This document shows positions 335-10,267 of a DNA stretch of 64,000 nt, in pieces. How positions within the stretch are numbered: the stretch's first letter is position 1; every line of letters starts with the position of its first letter. The notes under the pieces are model-generated. The model was not told the origin of the DNA and ran no database searches. It worked only from the letters and a program-made list of their open reading frames with translations. Source of the stretch: Salegentibacter sp. (GTDB lineage Bacteria > Bacteroidota > Bacteroidia > Flavobacteriales > Flavobacteriaceae); assembly GCA_024635795.1 (NCBI GenBank), contig JAGXIH010000024.1, positions 1-64,000 of the forward strand. Reading direction: 5' to 3'. A program made the position numbers and the translations under genes.

Positions 335-360
335 AAAGGTTAGTCTATGTGCTAACCTTT
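335..360 (+). terminator. Intrinsic terminator or attenuator between the Cys-rich peptide and the sigma factor
   Basis: A 9-bp perfect stem (AAAGGTTAG / CTAACCTTT) with an 8-nt loop is followed by an AT-rich tail with a run of five T. It ends 16 bases before the preferred sigma-factor ATG, so it may end the peptide transcript or attenuate readthrough into the sigma gene. Confidence 0.6.
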
Positions 361-375
361 ATTATATTTTTGAAT

Positions 376-900
376 ATGGAAACTCAAAAAATATGGAACA
401 GGTTCGGTGAGGAACTATATTTTTTCATTCTTAAAAAAGTGAAGGATAAGAATGCTGCAAATGATATCTTCCAGAATAGCTTTCTGAAAATCCATAAAAA
501 CCTGTCTAAGCTTAAAAAAGAAGAAAAAACAAAAGCCTGGGTCTTTCAAATTGCCAGAAATGAAATAGTGAATCACTTCAATAAAGAATCTGTTTATCTG
601 GAGCAGTTAAATACCAATAAGGAAACTCCGCTGGAAAAATATCAGCACATATGCTGTTTTGATAAATTTATAAATGATCTGCCCAAAATTTACAGGGAAG
701 TAATTGAACTGGTGTATATCAAAGGCCATAAACAAAAAGATGTGGCAGGAATATTAGATATAAGCCTTGAAAATGTAAAAGCAAGAATAAGGAGAGCGAA
801 AGATATTTTAAAGAAAAATTTCAATGAATGTTGTAAATATGAATTTGATAAAAATGGTAATTTAACCGGAGAATCGAATTGTTCCGTATGTAAGACATAA
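376..900 (+). CDS. ECF-type RNA polymerase sigma factor, SigZ-like
   Basis: This 174-residue protein has sigma-70 region 2 (about residues 5-75; NAANDIFQNSFLKIHKNL and AWVFQIARNEIVNHF) and region 4 (about residues 95-150; IYREVIELVYIKGHKQKDVA, then a helix-turn-helix with NVKARIRRAKDIL). An in-frame ATG at 349 lies inside the loop of the preceding terminator hairpin, so the ATG at 376 (METQKIW) is preferred. The C-terminal tail is unusual: Cys-Cys near residue 153 and a final C-S-V-C-K-T. SigZ-like factors of Bacteroidota often end this way, and no separate anti-sigma gene follows. Metal or redox sensing through these cysteines is an inference from the neighbouring metallothionein-like and copper genes. 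Confidence 0.85.
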   Translation: METQKIWNRFGEELYFFILKKVKDKNAANDIFQNSFLKIHKNLSKLKKEEKTKAWVFQIARNEIVNHFNKESVYLEQLNTNKETPLEKYQHICCFDKFINDLPKIYREVIELVYIKGHKQKDVAGILDISLENVKARIRRAKDILKKNFNECCKYEFDKNGNLTGESNCSVCKT

Positions 901-1039: not shown

Positions 1040-3352
1040 TTAGAAAAGCCATGACAAACCTGCTCCTGCGCCAAAACGATTATCATAACTGGCGATGAGC
1101 CTTATGTTTTTTCCGGCGACGTATTCCAGGCCTGCCTGCCAGGTTTCTTCGCTTTCAAAATCTGAATTGTCCGGTAAGTTCGTATTCCACCCAAAATCCA
1201 TTTGATACTCATATTCTCCAAAAACACCTAATCTGGGAAAAACCATTAATCCTGCGCTAAGCCCAATTTTTGGCCTCAGTTTGTTGTCTATAAGCAACTC
1301 AGAATTAATTAGCATAGGCAGTAAATATCGAATTCCTCCAATGGCTGTAGTCTCGAGCTCGTCAAGATCATCCTCCATTTCATTTTCCACGCTTACCCCT
1401 CCAAATAATCTGAAATAATCGTTCAAATAACGCTCATAGGTAAGGCTGGCCTCCAGATTTTCATTCCATCCATATTCACCCCGAAATGTAAACTGATTTC
1501 GAATGTTAGAAGCCGTGGCATACAATTCAGTCATATGGCTTGCGGCCATGACTTCTCCCCAGGTAAACATCTCATTGGCTTCTGTAGTTAGGTTAGATAA
1601 AGGAAACTCCTTTAAACGTTCATCACGCGGGGTATCATAACTAAATGCCCTGGCCATGCCGGCGTTCAAATGGTAAAGGACATGACAGTGAAAAAACCAA
1701 TCTCCATATTCATTAGCATCAAATTCTATAACCGTTTTCTGCATTGGAGCAACATTCACTGTATGTTTTAAAGGGGAATATTCTCCATGTTCATTAATCA
1801 CCCTGAAGAAATGCCCATGCAGGTGCATAGGATGGTGCATCATGGTGAGGTTATTAAGGGTGATCCGGACCTTTTGCCCCTGGTCGATTTTAATTTTATC
1901 GGTTTCCGAAAGAGGTACCCCATTGATACTCCATACATACCGGTTCATATTTCCTGTTAAGTTGAACAACATTTCCTTAAGAGGCTGTTCATCAGAAATA
2001 GTCGTTTTTTCCGGAGATCTTAAATAATCATAGTTAAATTCAGGGTTTCCTGCGGTCTTCATATTGCTGCCTATAACCACCTCAGCCGGTAAGGGTTTTT
2101 GATCCATATCCATCTTCATACCATCCTGGACCGGCATGTCCTGCTTCATTTCTTCGTCCTTTTCCATCTCCATACTTTCACCGTTCATATCCATTTTCAT
2201 TGAATACTTCTTCATGACTTTTATGGAATCCTGATGACCCGGTCTGAATTTAGATGCGGGAGCCCCCATTTTCATATCCATAGACATCATTTGCTTCATA
2301 ATTTCAATAAGATCTGGTTCCGGAACTTCAGGCGCGGCTATCACAGGTCCTTCGCCGAGATGGGTAATAGATTCCCCAGACCCATCCTGAGAAGTTGCCC
2401 TGATCTCTAATTTTCCATTTTCGGGAATAGTTACAATAAAGTCGTAGGTTTCAGCTACGGCAATAAGCGTTTTATCCTTTTTTATGGGTACTACATTTAA
2501 TCCATCAGCAGCAATCAGAGTAGGATCCGCACCAAAAGTCAACCAGAAATAGGAAGCAGCAGAGGCATTCACAAACCTTAATCTAACTTTTTCTCCCGGT
2601 TCGAATTCGGGATATTCCTGTTTAGGTTTACCATTCACCAGGAAAAGATCATGGTAATTATCTGATATCGCAACATCGGGCATACGCTGCCAGCTCATTT
2701 TTAACTTTTCTGCAAGCGCATCCTTTTTCAATATTTTATTTAAACTTTGAATCTGACCTTTTTTGATTAGATACCATTCATTACCCCTTTTCAGGTTTTT
2801 CAGTTGTTTATGGGGTTTTTCATCCATCCAGTCTGATAAAGTCAGCACCAGATCATGGTCATATTCAAATTCAGGTTCTTTGGGGTTTATCTGGATCGCA
2901 CCATATACCCCTCTTTGTTCCTGCAATCCGGTATGGGAGTGATACCAATAGGTCCCTGATTGTTTAAGAGCAAATTCGTAGGTAAAGGTTTCCCCAGGAC
3001 GAATAGGGGGAGTGGAAAGGTAAGGAACTCCGTCAAAAAAATTGGGGAGTAAAAGACCATGCCAGTGAACTGAGGTTTCCTTATCCATATTATTGGTGAC
3101 GTGAATTTTAGCATATTCCCCCTCGGTGAACTCCAATACGGGACCTGGGATTCCTCCATTAATGGTCATGGCCTTCACAGAATCCCCGGTCAGGTTCACT
3201 ATTTCTTCATCTATGGTGATATTGTATTCATGTACCGGCCAATTATCTACGTTCCCTTCCACAGAAGCGCTACGATCCTGCTGACCTAAAGTTAAAGTGA
3301 TCGTACAAAAAAACAAAACGCTAAATAGCCATAACCCCCTATTTTTATTCAT
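1040..3352 (-). CDS. CopA-type multicopper oxidase fused to a C-terminal CopB-like barrel domain
   Basis: This 770-residue exported protein has a signal peptide (MNKNRGLWLFSVLFFCTITL) and three cupredoxin domains. All four copper motifs are visible: HWH (96-98), HSH (138-140), HPMHLH in the third domain, and HCHVLYHLNAGM with the type 1 Cys at 556. Before the last domain lies a Met/Asp/Lys-rich stretch of about 80 residues (MKMDM-type repeats), as in CopA and PcoA. After the oxidase, residues 607-770 form a separate domain of alternating amphipathic strands ending in Trp-Leu-Phe, like CopB/PcoB outer-membrane proteins, which are normally encoded separately. The likely role is periplasmic Cu(I) oxidation and copper handling at the outer membrane. 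It is the last gene of the leftward copper operon. Confidence 0.9.
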   Translation of the reverse strand: MNKNRGLWLFSVLFFCTITLTLGQQDRSASVEGNVDNWPVHEYNITIDEEIVNLTGDSVKAMTINGGIPGPVLEFTEGEYAKIHVTNNMDKETSVHWHGLLLPNFFDGVPYLSTPPIRPGETFTYEFALKQSGTYWYHSHTGLQEQRGVYGAIQINPKEPEFEYDHDLVLTLSDWMDEKPHKQLKNLKRGNEWYLIKKGQIQSLNKILKKDALAEKLKMSWQRMPDVAISDNYHDLFLVNGKPKQEYPEFEPGEKVRLRFVNASAASYFWLTFGADPTLIAADGLNVVPIKKDKTLIAVAETYDFIVTIPENGKLEIRATSQDGSGESITHLGEGPVIAAPEVPEPDLIEIMKQMMSMDMKMGAPASKFRPGHQDSIKVMKKYSMKMDMNGESMEMEKDEEMKQDMPVQDGMKMDMDQKPLPAEVVIGSNMKTAGNPEFNYDYLRSPEKTTISDEQPLKEMLFNLTGNMNRYVWSINGVPLSETDKIKIDQGQKVRITLNNLTMMHHPMHLHGHFFRVINEHGEYSPLKHTVNVAPMQKTVIEFDANEYGDWFFHCHVLYHLNAGMARAFSYDTPRDERLKEFPLSNLTTEANEMFTWGEVMAASHMTELYATASNIRNQFTFRGEYGWNENLEASLTYERYLNDYFRLFGGVSVENEMEDDLDELETTAIGGIRYLLPMLINSELLIDNKLRPKIGLSAGLMVFPRLGVFGEYEYQMDFGWNTNLPDNSDFESEETWQAGLEYVAGKNIRLIASYDNRFGAGAGLSWLF

Positions 3353-3417
3353 TATCTTAATTTTTCCTGGTTAATCCTTTCTCCCTGAAATTATTGTGGG
3401 TTTTTATGTTTTCCACT

Positions 3418-3618
3418 TTATCTGTTTTCCTTGAGAGTTTCTTTTTGATTTTCAAATTCCTCCTTGGTTATTTCACCTCTTGCATACCTTTCTTCTAATA
3501 TATTCATAGGACTCTTAGGTCTTTTTTCAACCGGCCCTTTTTTATTTTTACTGGCATAAAAGAATATCACGAAAAAAAGAAGGCCAAAACCTATTATCCA
3601 CCACCACCACATCATCAT
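3418..3618 (-). CDS. Small SHOCT-domain membrane protein
   Basis: This 66-residue protein starts MMMWWWWIIGFGLLFFVIFF, a single N-terminal membrane helix, and ends with the SHOCT motif (ILEERYARGEITKEEFENQK), a short C-terminal oligomerisation domain. Such proteins often accompany copper efflux and multicopper oxidase genes in Bacteroidota. It lies 22 bases upstream of the Met-rich lipoprotein's 3' end, in the middle of the copper operon. Its molecular role is unknown. Methionines and tryptophans at the N-terminus could interact with copper, but that is speculation. Confidence 0.8.
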   Translation of the reverse strand: MMMWWWWIIGFGLLFFVIFFYASKNKKGPVEKRPKSPMNILEERYARGEITKEEFENQKETLKENR

Positions 3619-3640
3619 AATTGTTATATTTTAGTATTTA

Positions 3641-4156
3641 TTATTTCTCAGAATTGGAGTTTTTCTCCTTCATCTTAGACTTCATTTTTTCCTTCATTTC
3701 CGGATTTTCCATCATCTTTTTCATCATATCCTTTTTCATCTCCTTGTTTTTATACATTTTTTCCATCAGCATTTTTCTGCCTTCCGGACTTTTCAGCATT
3801 TTTTCGATCATCATTGATTGCATTTTTCCTTGAATTTCAGGGTTCTTCTCCATCATTTTCTGCATATGCGAATTAACCCTCTCCTTCATATCAGGATTAT
3901 TTTTCATCATTTCCTTCATTCTTGCCGATTCCATCATTTGCATTTGGCTTTGCATCATAATCCTTCTTGCTTCCTCATCTTGCTGCGCCAGTTCTATAAA
4001 TTCATTCAGTTGCCCCGGGTTTGAAATCATTTCCTGATATACTGCCTCCCGATTGTTTTGAAGTTCCATTGTCTCAGTTGCATCAAAGCTCGATTTACAG
4101 CTAACAAATGCGCCTATTATACCAATAATCATTAGTGTTTTTGAAATAGTTCTCAT
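3641..4156 (-). CDS. Met/Lys/Glu-rich lipoprotein, probable copper-binding protein
   Basis: This 171-residue protein has a lipoprotein signal with Cys at about residue 20 (IIGIIGAFVSCKSSF). From about residue 65 it consists of repeated helix-forming Met-rich units, such as KEMMKNNPDMKERV, HMQKMMEKNPEIQGKM and KDMMKKMMENPEMKEKM. The repeat M-M-x-x-N-P-x-[MI]-[KQ] recurs about every 15-22 residues. Met-rich periplasmic segments bind Cu(I) in proteins such as CopA and PcoE, so a copper buffer or chaperone role is likely but inferred. It sits between the two multicopper oxidase genes. I do not recognise a named family. Confidence 0.75.
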   Translation of the reverse strand: MRTISKTLMIIGIIGAFVSCKSSFDATETMELQNNREAVYQEMISNPGQLNEFIELAQQDEEARRIMMQSQMQMMESARMKEMMKNNPDMKERVNSHMQKMMEKNPEIQGKMQSMMIEKMLKSPEGRKMLMEKMYKNKEMKKDMMKKMMENPEMKEKMKSKMKEKNSNSEK

Positions 4157-4251
4157 TGTGTTTAGTATTTAGTTAAAAATTAGTCTTACTATTTTCTGGT
4201 TTTATAAACCATTAGAAAAAATCTTTATTATAAATAATATTTCTTCCTGTT

Positions 4252-5916
4252 TTATGTGATTTTAAAGTTTCTCATCATACCCATATCTTCGTGTTCCAGA
4301 TTATGACAGTGGTAAAGGAAAAGGCCTTTGAAGTCTGAAAAGTGCATAATGACCTTAATTTCCATACCCGGCATTAGTAGCACTGTATCCTGCCAGCCTT
4401 CATCTATAAAACCATCCTTGATAGATTCCCAAACCGAAGGATCCATTTCGGAAGTATCGCGTTCCAAAACATTAAACTGTACCTGATGTATGTGAACAGG
4501 GTGGGGCATCTGCATCATATTCCCCATACCTCCATCTTCACTTCCTCGCCCCATCATACCGCCGCCGCCATCCATCATGCCACCATCACCCATCATGCCG
4601 TTACCGCCCATCATATTTCCTCCTTTATTGGAAAACTGCCAGATTTCAGTAGTATTCAATTTTACTGTTTCCTCTTCAGCTACACCTCTGGCTTCCCAGG
4701 TCCTGCCATTAATTGTCCACTGCATTCTCTGCATGAAGAAATTAAATTCCCTGGGATTATTTTTATTAATCGCAGTGTTGGGGTCCAGGCTATTATAAGC
4801 TACAAGTTTTTCAGGAAGCAGAAAATCATTCGAACCGCTCCCGTTCATTTTAATTTTAAAAAGACTGTATTCAGAACCTAAAGGCAAACGGGTATTATCA
4901 GCATTCATCATTCCACCATTCATCATTCCACCCATCATACCGCTTTCAAAGGCAAGGCTTTTTAATTCAATTTCATCTCCTTGTTTTTTATTTTTTAGAT
5001 CCAGCCATATGTCAATTCTCTCTGCCGGAGCCAGCATTAAGTAAGGCATTTCTTTAGATTGTTCCAGGATACTACCATCAACTCCAATTACTGTAAGTGG
5101 CTCCCCGTTATCCCAGGCTAGTTTGTAAATTCTTGAATTCGAACCATTAAGGACCCTTAGCCTGTAATTACATCCTGCTTTAAGGGATAATTCTTGTTCC
5201 GGCCTGCCGTTCACAAAGATTTCATCACCAAGAAAGCCATTCATCCTATCCATTCTTCCGCCATCAAGGTAAACCAGTTGGTTGTTATTATCAATACTAC
5301 GGTCCTGAATGACCACCGAACGATCAAATTCGCCTGTGGGAAGGCCCAAATTGTCCTCTTTCTTATCTGTTACCAGCAACATCCCGGCAAGGCCGTTGTA
5401 TACCTGTGGCCCGGTGCGGCCATGAGGATGAGGGTGATACCAATAAGTTCCTGCACGGTTCATTACCTCATATTCGTATACATAAGTTTCACCATTGGAG
5501 ATTACGTCCGTTGGATGGCCGTCGTACTCTTCCGGGACATGCATCCCGTGCCAATGCACGATACTTTCCTCCTGCAACTCATTTTTAAAGCGTATTCGTA
5601 TTTTCTGGCCTTTGCGCACTTTAATTGTGGGGCCAAGATAACTGTCAGGAGTTTGCTGAAGGCTGCCGGGTTCCCCCTTTATCAATTCACTCTTAAAGGA
5701 CCAGCATTTTGTTTTTTCTCCGTCAAATAAGCCTATTTCCCGTTCAGTTGCAGTTAGTTCAATATCAAGATCGGGTTTAAAATCGGGGTTCAATTTTAAA
5801 GGCTCTTCATTACTATTTGCATTAGCACAGGACTGAAATAACGGCCAGGTAATAAGTATAGATGCACCAGCACAGCCAAGTTTTATGAAATTTCTTCTAT
5901 CATTTTTGATACTCAT
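4252..5916 (-). CDS. CueO-like multicopper oxidase, Tat-exported
   Basis: This 554-residue oxidase has a twin-arginine type leader (NDRRNFIKLGCAGASILI) and a possible lipobox Cys at 30. Copper ligands are complete: HWH at 121-123, HPH at 161-163, HPVHIH in the third domain, and HCHNLEHEDMGMM at 536-548, giving type 1 Cys537, His542 and axial Met547, the same spacing as in CueO. Two Gly/Met-rich inserts (for example MMGGMMNGGMMN and a longer one just before HPVHIH) resemble the CueO Met-rich lid and would take up Cu(I). The likely activity is cuprous oxidase in the periplasm. It follows DUF305 by 53 bases in the copper operon. Confidence 0.92.
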   Translation of the reverse strand: MSIKNDRRNFIKLGCAGASILITWPLFQSCANANSNEEPLKLNPDFKPDLDIELTATEREIGLFDGEKTKCWSFKSELIKGEPGSLQQTPDSYLGPTIKVRKGQKIRIRFKNELQEESIVHWHGMHVPEEYDGHPTDVISNGETYVYEYEVMNRAGTYWYHPHPHGRTGPQVYNGLAGMLLVTDKKEDNLGLPTGEFDRSVVIQDRSIDNNNQLVYLDGGRMDRMNGFLGDEIFVNGRPEQELSLKAGCNYRLRVLNGSNSRIYKLAWDNGEPLTVIGVDGSILEQSKEMPYLMLAPAERIDIWLDLKNKKQGDEIELKSLAFESGMMGGMMNGGMMNADNTRLPLGSEYSLFKIKMNGSGSNDFLLPEKLVAYNSLDPNTAINKNNPREFNFFMQRMQWTINGRTWEARGVAEEETVKLNTTEIWQFSNKGGNMMGGNGMMGDGGMMDGGGGMMGRGSEDGGMGNMMQMPHPVHIHQVQFNVLERDTSEMDPSVWESIKDGFIDEGWQDTVLLMPGMEIKVIMHFSDFKGLFLYHCHNLEHEDMGMMRNFKIT

Positions 5917-5969
5917 ATCTTATTGTAGTTTACAATCTCATGCTAATCTCCCCTTTCCATTAATTATTT

Positions 5970-6425
5970 TTACTCATTCTCCAGTCGATAAATTATTTTC
6001 TTCATTTGAGCGATCTCTCTTTTTTGAGCCTCAATAATTTCTTTGGCAAGTTCTTTAGTTTCAGGGTCTTTTAGATCTGCTTCCTGACTTGTTAAAATAG
6101 CTGAAGCATGATGGGGGATCATCCCTTTCATATACTGAATATCAGAAATACCGGCTTGTGTTCGCATCATATAATAAACAGAACCAAAACCAACGATGGC
6201 AACCACTAATATAATTGTGTTCAGCGTTTTATTTTTATACATCCCCAACATAAATAAAAGCATGATAACCGCCATGGCTGTGATCATTAGAAGGGTCATG
6301 TAAGTACGCATAGTGCTTAACATAACATATTCAAACTTATCGGCGTTTAAGAACATGATGCCGTACATCACAACAAATGAGACCAACATCATTAGTCCGA
6401 ATTTCACATAATTACCTTTTTGCAT
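5970..6425 (-). CDS. DUF305 membrane protein
   Basis: This 151-residue protein has three predicted membrane helices (about residues 9-26, 42-61 and 68-86) and then a DUF305 four-helix type segment with the characteristic MKGMIPHHASAI motif (His106-His107) and a Lys/Glu-rich helix ending QMKKIIYRLENE. DUF305 proteins are ferritin-like helical proteins commonly linked to copper resistance genes. It lies 3 bases after the DUF3347 gene, so the two are probably translated together. Its biochemical role is not established; metal binding by the His pair is inferred. Confidence 0.85.
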   Translation of the reverse strand: MQKGNYVKFGLMMLVSFVVMYGIMFLNADKFEYVMLSTMRTYMTLLMITAMAVIMLLFMLGMYKNKTLNTIILVVAIVGFGSVYYMMRTQAGISDIQYMKGMIPHHASAILTSQEADLKDPETKELAKEIIEAQKREIAQMKKIIYRLENE

Positions 6426-6428
6426 AAT

Positions 6429-6980
6429 TTATTTTTTTGGTTTGATTGCTTCTTTTACACTACCGCATTTCGGCATTTTTTCCCCTCCGTAAGGGTTTTT
6501 GATTTCTTCGATTTCTGCGAACCAAAATGCTCCCTTATTGTTGAAGGCCATGGGGCAGAATTGCTTATAAATGGTCCCTCCGGAAAGGTTCTGCTTGAAG
6601 AGCGTTTCTACCTCAATACTAAACTCAGAAAAGCTACTTCTTAACTGTTCTATATCTTCGGCCTCAGCCATATTTTCTGAAAGTGACTTTAATTCCGGAA
6701 AGTCTTCGTTGAAACTGTTGGCAATACTTTCAGAAGCATCCTGGGCGGTTTCCAGGTCATCATTAAACAGGGCAGTTCTCACCATTAAATAATAATAATA
6801 TACAGTGCCTGTCATGCCATCTTTAAAACTGCTGTCGGCGATATCCGGAGTTTCCTCTTTCTTTTCTTTAACCTCTTCTGCGGTATTTACTTCTACGCTT
6901 TGTTCCTGTTTTTTATCAATACAGGCCGTAAAGACAAAAAATAGCAGGGGAAGCAACCAGATTTTTCTTATGTGTTTCAT
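6429..6980 (-). CDS. DUF3347 lipoprotein, first gene of the copper operon
   Basis: This 183-residue lipoprotein (signal LLPLLFFVFTACIDK, lipid Cys at 20) carries a DUF3347 domain. A helical region runs from about 55 to 135, then comes the family hallmark FCPMAFNNKGAFW and a final MPKCG motif, two conserved Cys that could bind copper. The same domain is often found fused to CusB-type periplasmic adaptors, which points to metal handling in the periplasm. It is the promoter-proximal gene of the leftward operon, separated by about 330 bases from the divergent thioredoxin gene. Confidence 0.85.
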   Translation of the reverse strand: MKHIRKIWLLPLLFFVFTACIDKKQEQSVEVNTAEEVKEKKEETPDIADSSFKDGMTGTVYYYYLMVRTALFNDDLETAQDASESIANSFNEDFPELKSLSENMAEAEDIEQLRSSFSEFSIEVETLFKQNLSGGTIYKQFCPMAFNNKGAFWFAEIEEIKNPYGGEKMPKCGSVKEAIKPKK

Positions 6981-7311
6981 AATGTAATTTTGATTGGTTT
7001 AAATCTAAGTTATAGCTTAATAAATTAGTCTTTTCTAAAGTTTTCATAAAAGTTCAGGCTAGCATTTTATACATAGATTAAAAGCGTGGATTGGGAGTTG
7101 GATTTCCCGGATTTTGAAACTAAGAGTGAGAATTTGGGAAATTAGAAGGAGATAGTGGACTCCAGGGATTTTTTGTTCAGAAGAAAAGAATTAATAATTG
7201 TAAGGAATGATCAAGCCAAGCTTCTAATACCTCAGCAACTCACACATAATTCACATTCGCATAAATACGAATAGAATCATATTGACGTTATTAGTTAATA
7301 AAATACAAATA
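6981..7311. promoter_or_regulatory. Shared intergenic region between the divergent copper operon and ApbE module
   Basis: This stretch of 331 bases separates two divergent operons, so promoters for both must lie here. An inverted repeat ATTCG-N8-CGAAT at 7255-7272 sits 40 bases before the thioredoxin start and could be an operator. I found no convincing TTG/TAnnTTTG pair on either strand. No open frame of interest is present. Confidence 0.35.
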
Positions 7312-7749
7312 ATGAAAAAAGGATTAATATTAGTAATTCTACTTTTGAACTTTAGTACTGTCTTCTCACAGCAATGGGAGACAGATTTTGAAAAAGCAAA
7401 AGAACTTGCAACTGAAGAAAATAAACCAATCGTGTTGGTGTTCCAGGGTTCAGACTGGTGTGCACCCTGCATCAAATTAAACAGAGAAATTTGGAGTACA
7501 GACGCCTTTAAAAAGTATGCGCTAAATAATTACATTATGCTGCAGGCAGATTTCCCTAGAAAAAAGAGAAATGCTTTATCAGAAACACAAAGTAAAGCAA
7601 ATGCGAAATTAGCAGAAACCTATAACAGGAAGGGTATATTTCCCTTTGTGGTTGTCCTCGATTCAGATGGGAAAGTACTCGGGAAAACCGGCTATAAAAA
7701 AACTACTCCCGAAAAATATATTAAGGAGATAAATGCATTAGTAAAATAA
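7312..7749 (+). CDS. Exported thioredoxin-fold protein
   Basis: This 145-residue protein has a signal peptide (MKKGLILVILLLNFSTVFSQ) followed by a thioredoxin fold. The active site is WCAPC (Trp49, Cys50, Cys53), and the cis-Pro region is IFPFVVVLDSDGK. It resembles the thioredoxin-7/DUF255-like periplasmic reductases. A TTG upstream at 7282 is in frame, but only the ATG at 7312 gives a clean signal peptide. The gene starts a tightly packed operon, with one base between it and apbE, which suggests it reduces or protects a Cys-bearing partner, perhaps the DUF4266 protein with its C-x-C tail. Confidence 0.85.
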   Translation: MKKGLILVILLLNFSTVFSQQWETDFEKAKELATEENKPIVLVFQGSDWCAPCIKLNREIWSTDAFKKYALNNYIMLQADFPRKKRNALSETQSKANAKLAETYNRKGIFPFVVVLDSDGKVLGKTGYKKTTPEKYIKEINALVK

Positions 7750-7750
7750 T

Positions 7751-8731
7751 TTGAAAGATCGTATTACCACCTTACTTATACTGTTTTCAATGACAGTAAT
7801 GGCACAACAGCCATATAAACGAACACTCAAATTAATGGGTAGCCGTTTTGATATTACTGTAGTAGCAAACGATTCTGTTGCAGCAAATATACATATAGAT
7901 ACTGCGGTGGCTGAAATTTCAAGAATAGAAAAACTCATTTCTTCCTGGGATGCCAATTCACAAACTTCTGAGATTAATAGAAATTCGGGTATTAGACCCG
8001 TAAAGGTAGACGCTGAATTATTTGAATTGATTGAGCGTTCCATCAAGCTCTCCCGGTTAACCGATGGTGCTTTTGATATTACTTATGCCTCAATGGATAA
8101 AATCTGGAAATTTGATGGCAGTATGACCCTAATGCCTTCAGAAAAGGAAATAAATGCATCTGTGGAAAAAGTCGGTTTCCAGAACATCATCCTGGATAGA
8201 GAAAACAAAACTGTATTTCTAAAACTTGAAGGAATGAAAATCGGTTTTGGGGCCATAGGAAAAGGCTATGCAGCCGATAAAGCAAAAGCCTTGCTTATTT
8301 CAAAAGGAGTGCCAGCCGGAATTATTAATGCCTCCGGTGATATGAATACCTGGGGAAAGCAACCCAACGGGAAAGAATGGAAAGTCGCTATTACCAACCC
8401 GATGAACAAAAACAAGGTATTTGCCTTGTTGCCCATTACTGATGGGGCAATTGTGACTTCAGGCGATTACGAGAAATATGTGAGTTTTAATGGGAAAAGG
8501 TATACACATATTATCGACCCCCGAACAGGCTACCCTACAAGCGGAATTATTAGTGTAACCGTCTTCGCGCCAAAGGCAGAGCTTGCAGATGCACTCGCAA
8601 CCTCTGTATTTGTGATGGGTAAGGAAGCCGGATTAGACCGTATCAATCAATTACCCGGAATTGAGTGTATTATAATAGATGATAAAGGAAATATCACCAG
8701 GTCAAAGAATATTGAAATTGATAAACTATGA
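7751..8731 (+). CDS. apbE: FAD:protein FMN transferase (ApbE family)
   Basis: This 326-residue exported protein uses a TTG start one base after the thioredoxin stop and has a signal peptide ending near MAQQ. ApbE motifs are present in order: MGSRFDITVV, DGAFDITYASMDKIW, GFGAIGKGYAADKA, INASGDMNTWG, and THIIDPRTGYP with SGDYEKY, then ADALATSVFVMG. These proteins cleave FAD and transfer FMN to Ser or Thr of exported proteins in a Dxx[ST]GA[ST]-like motif. The 3' end overlaps the DUF4266 gene by four bases. The intended acceptor is probably encoded nearby; the DUF3570 protein carries an S-G-A-S stretch. Confidence 0.93.
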   Translation: MKDRITTLLILFSMTVMAQQPYKRTLKLMGSRFDITVVANDSVAANIHIDTAVAEISRIEKLISSWDANSQTSEINRNSGIRPVKVDAELFELIERSIKLSRLTDGAFDITYASMDKIWKFDGSMTLMPSEKEINASVEKVGFQNIILDRENKTVFLKLEGMKIGFGAIGKGYAADKAKALLISKGVPAGIINASGDMNTWGKQPNGKEWKVAITNPMNKNKVFALLPITDGAIVTSGDYEKYVSFNGKRYTHIIDPRTGYPTSGIISVTVFAPKAELADALATSVFVMGKEAGLDRINQLPGIECIIIDDKGNITRSKNIEIDKL

Positions 8732-8940
8732 TGAAAAAGTTTACAACTGCTGTTTTGACAGCTATTTTTTTTAGTAGTTGTGCGGTAGTAAAGGAGTATG
8801 AAAAAGTAAATATAAATGATCCGGATATGGCGCTTTCAGAAAAGAAAGTAGACCGAAATCTTACTACCGCACATTCCTATAGGGAAGCAGCCGTAGGGGC
8901 AAACGGCGGAAAAACCGGAGGTGGCTGCGGCTGTAATTAA
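8728..8940 (+). CDS. DUF4266 small lipoprotein with a C-x-C tail
   Basis: This 70-residue protein has a lipoprotein signal (TAVLTAIFFSSCAVVKEYEK; lipid Cys at 18) and a DUF4266 body with the recognisable NDPDMAL and REAAVGANGGKTGGGCGCN segments. The Gly-rich tail ends C-G-C-N, a possible metal, disulfide or modification site. It overlaps apbE by four bases and ends one base before the DUF3570 start. I know of no experimentally assigned function. Confidence 0.85.
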   Translation: MMKKFTTAVLTAIFFSSCAVVKEYEKVNINDPDMALSEKKVDRNLTTAHSYREAAVGANGGKTGGGCGCN

Positions 8941-8941
8941 T

Positions 8942-10267
8942 ATGACATCTATGTTGAAAAATATCCTGCTTTTTATAGGGGCGTTCGCTTTTGTGAATGC
9001 CTACTCCCAAACAACTCCAGACTCAACTAAAGTTTATAAAAAACGTGTACTGGAAACCACTGAAGTAGATTTTCTTACAAGTTATTATACCCAGGATGGT
9101 GATAACGCGGCTGTTAGCGGCGGTATTGGTACAGAGGAGTTAACAGATATTACAGGAACTTTTGTAGTTTCCATTCCATTAAATGATGACGATGTGTTGA
9201 CCATTGATGCCGGAGTTTCTGCATATACATCTGCCTCCTCAAGTAACATAGATCCTTTTGATGATGGCTCGGCAGGCCCTTTTCAGGCATCATCGGGAGC
9301 CTCAAGCGGAGACCTTTGGGCAAATCTAACAGGAAGTTACAGTCATAGCTCAGATGACAGAAACGATATCTGGTCTGCAAAACTATCGGTTTCGTCAGAA
9401 TACGATTATTTTTCTGTAGGGCTTGGTGGGAGTTATTCCAAACTTTTTAATGAAAAGAACACTGAGCTTAGTGTAAATGGAAACGTATATATAGACACCT
9501 GGAATGCTATTTATCCTATAGAATTGAGGCCTTTTGGAGAAGGTGGAAACGGGCTGAATAATCGTTTATTTACGCAAAACACCATTACAGGAAATACCAA
9601 CTATAATCCCTTATTTACTGAATTTGATAAGGAAGGACGTAATTCGTATTCTTTAGGATTGGGTTTCTCACAAATACTCCATAAAAACCTTCAAGGTTCA
9701 TTAGCAATAGATTTTGTGCAACAGGACGGATTGTTATCTACTCCTTTTCAAAGAGTATATTTTGGGGATATAGCCGATTCATTTATTGATAATTTCCAAC
9801 TTGCCGATGCTGTTGAACGCTTACCTGATTCAAGGTTTAAGATAGCGGTAGGCGGTCGTTTAAATTGGTATCTCAATGAAATATTCACGATGAGAACTTT
9901 TTATCGTTATTACTCTGATGATTGGGGGATTACTTCCCACACAGCCAGTGTTGAAGTTCCTGTGAAGATCACAGATAAGTTTACGTTATATCCCTCATAT
10001 AGATTCTATAACCAAACGGCAGCAGACTACTTTAGGCCTTATGAGAGTGCCCTGTCTACAGATGAATATTACACCTCTGATTATGACCTTTCCGAATACT
10101 CTGCAAATCAATTTGGATTTGGGGCTTCCTACACCGATATTTTCGCGAAGACCCACATCTGGAAATTTGGTTTAAAAAGTATAGATCTGAAGTTCTATAA
10201 ATATGACAGAGACACCACTTTTAGTTCTAATATTATTACAGCCGGATTTAAATTCCTGATGGACTAA
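8942..10267 (+). CDS. DUF3570 outer-membrane beta-barrel protein
   Basis: This protein of about 441 residues has a signal peptide (MLKNILLFIGAFAFVNAYSQ) and then alternating strand-forming segments to the end (IITAGFKFLMD), typical of DUF3570 barrels. The ATG at 8942 follows the DUF4266 stop by one base. An upstream in-frame start at 8921 would overlap it and spoil the signal peptide. Near residue 118 the sequence FQASSGASSGD contains S-G-A-S, which resembles an ApbE flavinylation target, although the upstream Asp is not ideally placed. It is the last gene of the module. A role in copper or electron transfer across the outer membrane is inferred from context only. Confidence 0.85.
   Translation: MTSMLKNILLFIGAFAFVNAYSQTTPDSTKVYKKRVLETTEVDFLTSYYTQDGDNAAVSGGIGTEELTDITGTFVVSIPLNDDDVLTIDAGVSAYTSASSSNIDPFDDGSAGPFQASSGASSGDLWANLTGSYSHSSDDRNDIWSAKLSVSSEYDYFSVGLGGSYSKLFNEKNTELSVNGNVYIDTWNAIYPIELRPFGEGGNGLNNRLFTQNTITGNTNYNPLFTEFDKEGRNSYSLGLGFSQILHKNLQGSLAIDFVQQDGLLSTPFQRVYFGDIADSFIDNFQLADAVERLPDSRFKIAVGGRLNWYLNEIFTMRTFYRYYSDDWGITSHTASVEVPVKITDKFTLYPSYRFYNQTAADYFRPYESALSTDEYYTSDYDLSEYSANQFGFGASYTDIFAKTHIWKFGLKSIDLKFYKYDRDTTFSSNIITAGFKFLMD

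Follow-up and report, generated by a model that had tools for sequence, protein, structure and literature searches.

We analysed a 64,000-nucleotide stretch of DNA from Salegentibacter sp. (hereafter "the window"), which makes up nearly the whole of its contig (64,277 bases); the assembly comprises 1.98 Mb and is 61.6% complete. The element under study is a module of four adjoining genes, which encode a secreted thioredoxin-like protein, the flavin mononucleotide (FMN) transferase ApbE, a small DUF4266 lipoprotein, and a DUF3570 outer-membrane beta-barrel protein (Table 1). All four assignments lie above the Pfam cut-offs, i.e. Thioredoxin_7 (PF13899, 3.6e-17), ApbE (PF02424, 1e-87), DUF4266 (PF14086, 1.7e-18), and DUF3570 (PF12094, 9.9e-38). 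One base separates the thioredoxin gene from the ApbE gene and the DUF4266 gene from the DUF3570 gene, while the ApbE and DUF4266 genes overlap by four bases. A preliminary description of the DNA had reported this packing, and the sequence and its open reading frames confirmed it to the base. The same applies to three other features named there, i.e. the lipoprotein end GGGCGCN, the S-G-A-S motif at residues 118-121 of the barrel, and the copper-type nature of the divergent operon next to the module. Among named relatives, the barrel of Salegentibacter flavus is the closest to that of the window (93% identity); that of S. sediminis is 91% identical.

Table 1. Coordinates of the module, its predicted functional sites, and associated features (positions refer to the window unless a locus is named)
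Feature	Position	Strand	Remarks
Divergent copper-type operon	1040-6980	-	Two multicopper oxidases, DUF305/CopM-like, DUF3347; a neighbour, no conserved part of the module
Thioredoxin_7 gene	7312-7749	+	ATG start, 145 aa; secreted thioredoxin-like protein; from sequence and open reading frame
Thioredoxin active-site codons, C-A-P-C (C50, C53)	7459-7470	+	Both Cys in 92/92 rows
ApbE (FAD:protein FMN transferase) gene	7751-8731	+	TTG start, 326 aa
DUF4266 small lipoprotein gene	8728-8940	+	ATG start, 70 aa
Predicted lipidated Cys18 (S-S-C) of DUF4266	8779-8781	+	C18 in 22/22
C-G-C pair (C67, C69) in the DUF4266 C-terminal GGGCGCN	8926-8934	+	
DUF3570 outer-membrane beta-barrel gene	8942-10267	+	ATG start, 441 aa
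Barrel site 1, T-S-A-S (Ser99)	9227-9238	+	Homologue of the other clade's first [ST]GAS; Ser replaces Gly
Barrel site 2, S-G-A-S (Ser121)	9293-9304	+	Predicted FMN attachment; [ST]GAS in 99/102
Fused secreted thioredoxin-ApbE proteins	L109 7030-8532; L125 8337-9704		

The genome-wide co-occurrence of the module genes, a check proposed in the preliminary description, was determined for DUF3570 and DUF4266. Of 99 genomes, 23, that of the window included, have both, and the other 76 have neither. We compared the window with 102 further DUF3570 loci (loci and genomes carry L and G numbers below). In BLAST searches with the window proteins (threshold 1e-5), DUF4266 was present in 100 of them, ApbE in 97, and the thioredoxin in 91, and these values are to be read with the limits that L047 and L096 start at contig ends and that the DUF4266 of L040 was missed by BLAST. 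In two of the 102 loci, L109 and L125, the thioredoxin and ApbE are fused into one protein, and Pfam confirms both domains for L125.

This set of genes has a published precedent. According to Meheust et al. (2021, PMC8238504), 228 flavinylation-associated DUF3570 proteins share two conserved [ST]GA[ST] motifs, and the DUF3570 protein of Chlorobium luteolum is flavinylated by its ApbE; flavinylation was abolished only when both serines were replaced. Among 285 clusters with DsbD, 227 contain DUF3570, 183 a PF13899 thioredoxin, and 221 DUF4266, and 316 clusters carry the four genes without an adjacent DsbD (PMC8238504). The authors point out the CXC tail of DUF4266 and propose DsbD as the electron source (PMC8238504). 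The window encodes an ApbE with an apparent signal peptide, DUF3570, a PF13899 thioredoxin, and DUF4266 with a C-terminal CXC. The single DsbD_TM match of the assembly is on a different contig, and its 55.6% identical relative directly follows DUF3570 in G024. Because 316 published clusters have no adjacent DsbD, its adjacency is not strictly defining. The window cluster is a further member of the published DUF3570 system, with which it shares the four families, the CXC tail, and, as in those 316 clusters, the lack of a neighbouring DsbD; it differs in its first flavin site, which reads T-S-A-S, and in the copper-type operon alongside. That the barrel is a substrate of ApbE is therefore well supported, by the Chlorobium demonstration as well as by the site conservation described below, but the idea, which the preliminary description had put forward as a new inference, is not new, because flavinylation of the C. 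luteolum protein by ApbE was published in 2021.

The conservation of the two sites was examined in an alignment of 103 barrels, i.e. the window and the 102 loci, in which S. flavus, S. sediminis, and Pseudozobellia thermophila each occur twice. One barrel is truncated at the sites, leaving 102 covering rows. Site 2 is spelled SGAS in 85 rows, TGAS in 14, and SSAS, TAVS, and SGES in one row each, and Ser121 and Asp124 are both present in all 102. The preliminary description had asked whether S-G-A-S is conserved in the family. With [ST]GAS in 99 of the 102 rows and the acceptor serine in every one, the motif cannot be attributed to chance, and the lack of conservation that the preliminary description had named as a refutation was not observed. 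Site 1 reads TSAS in 92 rows and SSAS in 10, so that [TS]SAS is found throughout, and Tyr95, Ser97, Ala98, and Ser99 are invariant in the covering rows. Compared with the two motifs of the published system, site 2 is canonical, whereas site 1 is homologous in position and non-canonical in sequence.

Of 296 genomes drawn from across the phylum, 86 contain DUF3570. The 30 loci compared from this draw all belong to one family of small genomes that, judged from the motif and the DUF4266 tail, would be Chlorobi. At least two [ST]GA[ST] motifs are present in all 30 barrels. Their first canonical motif (D-S-V-T-G-A-S and similar) aligns with the T-S-A-S of the window in 30 of 30 cases, and the second aligns with S-G-A-S in 24. 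The alignment thus indicates that the flavobacterial branch has retained the second site and has Ser in place of Gly at the first, with the acceptor serine invariant. Many genomes of the same small-genome family have several DUF3570 genes, some of them in tandem (e.g. G295:C45).

The barrel of the window was modelled with AlphaFold2 together with 79 relatives, resulting in a mean predicted local distance difference test (pLDDT) value of 89.7 and a predicted TM score (pTM) of 0.82. The DSSP string shows about 16 strands. Site 1 lies at the end of strand 3 (residues 84-97) and site 2 just before strand 4 (124-136), so that Ser99 and Ser121 bound loop 98-123. In the DSSP reading, the loops after odd strands have lengths of 11, 26, 2, 44, 33, 4, 27, and 4 residues, and those after even strands have 4, 5, 4, 2, 4, 4, and 10. 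The termini of outer-membrane barrels face the periplasm and the long loops follow odd strands; therefore, loop 98-123 is predicted to be outside, and by the usual barrel topology both flavin-site serines would bound a loop at the cell surface. The L125 barrel, whose best segment is 64% identical, was modelled as a replicate (pLDDT 79.0, pTM 0.73), and the two sites are again located at these ends of the strands. Since residues alternate along strand 3, Ser97 and Ser99 would both lie on its polar face.

A Foldseek search against the PDB agrees with the assignment as a barrel. The best 50 matches listed are all outer-membrane barrels (TodX, FadL, AlgE, OprD, OmpG, and similar), with E values from 3e-10 to 1.3e-8 and query-normalised TM scores of only 0.33-0.44. 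The DUF3570 protein is thus predicted to combine a closed barrel fold with a signal peptide, the latter judged by eye. No solved structure related by sequence to DUF3570 or DUF4266 was found up to E = 1. The stretch from residue 95 to 125 comprises 31-32 residues in 94 of the 103 rows and is enlarged to 52-58 residues, with an extra SGAS, in three relatives, two of which (L035 and L040) have an Asp-rich run between the flavin sites. The L046 barrel has a run of more than 60 mostly Asp residues in a different loop.

The other proteins of the module carry conserved thiols. The thioredoxin is DsbH-like according to NCBIfam, with a score below the cut-off (96 versus 190 bits), and its G-S-D-W-C-x-P-C is unchanged in 92 of 92 aligned rows. 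A lipobox-like pattern was found in 91 of 101 DUF4266 rows, and the tail GGGCGCN in all 101. About 15 to 20 residues, many of them Gly, lie before the CGC, and we estimate that the extended tail would be long enough to span a barrel. The barrel of the window has no Cys, and 98 of the 103 rows are free of Cys from residue 32 on. Because the barrel is Cys-free while the GGGCGCN tail is universal, thiol to flavin is the evident hand-over. Two other roles were considered for the CXC tail, in which it would bind copper or mimic a disulfide isomerase.

The N-terminus of ApbE, MKDRITTLLILFSMTVMAQQ, resembles a signal peptide and is devoid of Cys, as judged by eye. It is the sole ApbE detected in the assembly, and a search for FMN_bind, another type of acceptor, found none there, which given the 61.6% completeness does not establish absence from the genome. 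Each of four relatives tested carries an FMN_bind protein together with two or more ApbE genes, and in three of them the distance between an ApbE gene and the FMN_bind gene is no more than about 4 kb. Because these relatives have a further ApbE besides FMN_bind, in three of them close by, the ApbE of the module is probably reserved for the barrel.

Taken together, we consider it likely that the module is a DsbD-type DUF3570 flavinylation system whose electrons reach an acceptor on the surface of the cell or outside it. Electrons from the cytosol would cross the inner membrane via a DsbD encoded elsewhere in the genome, which would reduce the secreted thioredoxin at its CAPC site. The thioredoxin would pass them on to the CGC pair at the Gly-rich tail of the outer-membrane lipoprotein, and this tail would reduce one or two FMN groups on the barrel, which the module's own ApbE would have linked to Ser121 and perhaps to Ser99. 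From the outward loop, the FMN would hand the electrons to the acceptor, most plausibly a metal ion or complex. The order from DsbD via thioredoxin and CGC to FMN is what we infer from the parts, in line with what Meheust et al. proposed. The outer-face location of the flavin, as predicted from the model, would be the new step beyond that work. The main text of PMC8238504 contains neither the word copper nor the word barrel, and mentions the outer membrane once, in connection with TonB receptors. Among the papers listed by literature searches, judged from titles and the beginnings of abstracts, no other one dealt with the topology of this barrel or with adjoining metal pumps, which is not proof of absence. 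In the literature searched, DUF4266 and DUF3570 are each named in a single paper, Meheust et al. 2021 (PMC8238504).

Several observations weigh against this interpretation. Site 1 lacks the Gly of the motif in all 102 covering rows, and according to a review of ApbE a change from Gly to Ala in the motif lowers the flavinylation of another protein (PMC12052999). Site 2 lacks an Asp six residues upstream, the loss of which has a minor effect on flavinylation (PMC12052999), and it is degraded to SSAS and TAVS in L045 and L046, the two most distant flavobacterial barrels. In six of the 30 barrels of the other clade (L141, L143, L145, L150, L151, and L158) the alignment has a gap at site 2; their second motif instead precedes site 1 by 35-62 residues and may belong to the surface loop ahead of it. 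The model is weaker at residues 91-130, i.e. in the loop itself, with block means of 66-80 in the window barrel and pLDDT values below 50 in the L125 replicate. DsbD is not adjacent in the window, and a clear DsbD is found beside the module in only three of the 102 loci, the seed's own locus included. Because ApbE acts before the outer membrane, a serine at the surface would need to receive its FMN before the barrel inserts.

Apart from the module's own genes, those most often encountered in the 102 loci are genes for resistance-nodulation-division (RND) efflux; one cluster of adaptors is represented in 18 loci and one of pumps in 16. Two pumps were tested (those of L036 and L088), and both belong to TIGR00914, CusA/CzcA heavy-metal efflux, above the NCBIfam cut-off. 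In 22 DUF3570-carrying genomes, at least 48 TIGR00914 pumps exceed this cut-off. Such a pump lies within 10 kb of DUF3570 in three of the 22 (G011, G024, and G063), versus 0.33 expected (P about 0.004), and within 5 kb in two, versus 0.2 expected (P about 0.016); the test is post hoc, having been chosen after the neighbours had been seen, and its null is uniform placement. The arrangement differs between genomes: three genes lie between pump and module in G011, the pump comes after the module in G024 and in Salegentibacter sp. R32, and it is on the opposite strand in G063. Ten loci (eight from Maribacter, L081, and L084) have a co-directional arrangement in which a pump gene and an adaptor gene lead into the module, the adaptor gene ending 39-174 bases ahead of it; in L084 the thioredoxin was not found and the gap after the adaptor runs to ApbE. 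On the barrel tree, the co-directional arrangement requires nine changes by parsimony, a number that is inflated because short contigs were scored as absent. We examined 18 pump genes. The stretch DFGxxxDG[AS], which we take to be typical of divalent-metal pumps other than copper, is present in 14 of them; L036 has AIGTMVD instead, presumably a mark of copper/silver pumps, and three have neither. What survives is a metal link that is broader and weaker than the one first proposed, i.e. heavy-metal RND efflux genes lie near the module in some lineages.

How much these neighbours reveal about the function can be judged by weighing other explanations. A general metal-stress module, in which reducing power in the envelope aids heavy-metal efflux or eases toxicity irrespective of the metal, is a tentative possibility. 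The excess of TIGR00914 pumps nearby, the ten co-directional loci, and the occurrence of this arrangement at several places in the barrel tree are compatible with it, but the test behind the excess is post hoc and takes uniform placement as its null, the same linkage would result from shared mobile islands, and most loci have no pump (by phmmer, RND genes lie near 18 of 102), three of the 18 pumps having neither heavy-metal stretch. A role confined to copper, with the barrel and the CGC lipoprotein serving the divergent operon by reducing or binding copper at the outer membrane, is very unlikely. It is suggested by the divergent arrangement with genes for two multicopper oxidases, a CopM-like protein, and DUF3347; by G024 (barrel 88% identical), in which the genes after the module encode DsbD, an HYC_CC_PP protein, a pump of the CusA/CzcA family, a product of 405 aa, and a multicopper oxidase; and by Salegentibacter sp. 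R32, in which metal-efflux-like genes flank the module. However, neither S. flavus nor S. sediminis has a copper operon next to its module, as judged by BLAST with the copper proteins of the window and from the gene listings by eye. In the former a transporter-like gene adjoins it, and in the latter other genes, with arsenic-type ones downstream. A sigma-factor gene of the window (349-900) is, by eye, also located upstream of the module in S. sediminis, so that the copper operon occupies a place that is filled otherwise in this relative. Within the 102 loci (up to about 10 kb on each side), BLAST with the copper proteins detected a multicopper oxidase in one and DUF3347 in one. The second multicopper oxidase has a full-length match in seven of 15 genomes of the genus and the module is found in four of the 15; the two occur together only in the genome of the window, which disfavours a dependence on the copper operon. 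In addition, 14 of the 18 nearby pump genes are of the DFGxxxDG[AS] type. The module is thus not conserved beside copper genes, and copper as a conserved partner was rejected; the link to copper drawn in the preliminary description is not supported in that form.

Iron reduction for assimilation, which Meheust et al. suggested from VIT1 neighbours in 25 clusters (PMC8238504), is an unlikely function. VIT1-like genes were found near the module in six of the 102 loci, including that of the seed, which is VIT1 in Pfam (6.3e-44), but the other 96 loci, some of which are short, have none; elsewhere in the window no search for VIT1 was made. The same parts and the same direction of electron flow would also serve thiol oxidation, with the flavin barrel draining periplasmic dithiols for disulfide formation in a DsbB-like manner instead of feeding an outside acceptor. 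The thioredoxin and the CGC lipoprotein are thiol proteins, as this would require, but the resemblance of the thioredoxin to the reductase DsbH (below the cut-off) and the expectation that DsbD, where adjacent, feeds electrons in make it quite improbable. We give least credence to a barrel that is unflavinylated in this organism, with structural serines and an ApbE that serves another protein. The non-canonical site 1 would be in accord with it, and so would three Aquimarina loci that retain both sites without an ApbE in the cluster. Against it stand the direct demonstration in Chlorobium (PMC8238504), the two ApbE genes elsewhere in each of the two searchable genomes of these Aquimarina, and the further ApbE genes and FMN_bind proteins of the four relatives, which leave the ApbE of the module for the barrel.

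The proposed electron-transfer system can be compared with known systems. Like the ApbE substrates DUF2271 and FMN_bind, it would carry FMN on a short [ST]GA[ST] motif for extracytosolic electron transfer; those are small soluble domains, whereas the substrate in the window is an outer-membrane barrel. With the porin-cytochrome conduits of the MtrCAB type it would have in common that electrons pass the outer membrane at a barrel. The difference is that it would use flavin and thiols where Mtr uses haems: no gene of the module is a cytochrome in Pfam, and the barrel has no Cys for a multihaem CXXCH motif. Heavy-metal RND efflux systems of the CusCBA/CzcCBA type adjoin the module in some relatives, but none was found beside it in the window, and the linkage is not conserved. 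Extracellular disulfide reduction by Shewanella was considered as a parallel and discarded, having been traced by its authors to Mtr cytochromes (PMC10986466). In its boldest form, the proposal would be a haem-free route through a single barrel, in which the CGC tail of DUF4266 enters the barrel and reduces FMN at both ends of one surface loop, these flavins reduce metals outside, and several lineages have integrated the route into operons for heavy-metal efflux. We regard this complete version as doubtful.

The inheritance of the module was also considered. The barrel tree, a quick tree with many open forks, follows taxonomy loosely, with rows titled Saccharicrinis and Cytophaga among Flavobacteriaceae. 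This departure and the presence of the module in four of 15 genomes of the genus suggest that it was spread by transfer or lost repeatedly. Among 89 regions upstream of the thioredoxin gene, each of at most 150 bases, three contain a strict Fnr-type box (TTGAT-N4-ATCAA), versus 0.1 in shuffles. The three carriers, L036, L059, and L074, have a perfect box, TTGATAAATATCAA, before the thioredoxin gene and a Crp/Fnr-type gene directly upstream of the module. Because of this gene the box does not generalise, and Fnr-type regulation as a general feature was discarded. In the window, an inverted repeat ATTCG-N8-CGAAT (7255-7272) is located upstream of the thioredoxin gene; it is retained in S. flavus and degraded in S. 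sediminis.

Some further features were observed in the surroundings of the module. The sigma-factor gene (plus strand), assigned by Pfam, is ECF-like and encodes Cys residues at the C-terminus. The first multicopper oxidase (1040-3352, minus strand) has 770 aa, and its Pfam copper-oxidase domains stop near residue 573. By eye, the last ~200 residues resemble the strands of an outer-membrane barrel, as in a fusion of an oxidase with a CopB-like barrel, and open frames of 776-818 aa recur among its weaker matches within the genus. The copper operon also encodes a Met-rich, lipoprotein-like protein of 171 aa (3641-4156, minus strand) that has no Pfam match.

The flavin proposed for the barrel is biology that has been established in a relative, and the question narrows to the substrate that is reduced and to the side of the membrane on which this occurs. 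The surface-side flavin and the metal link are the parts worth testing. The metal-efflux pumps that recur beside the module in some lineages are a first lead on the substrate, and if both flavins are indeed at the surface, bacteria would own a haem-free route for electrons at the outer membrane.

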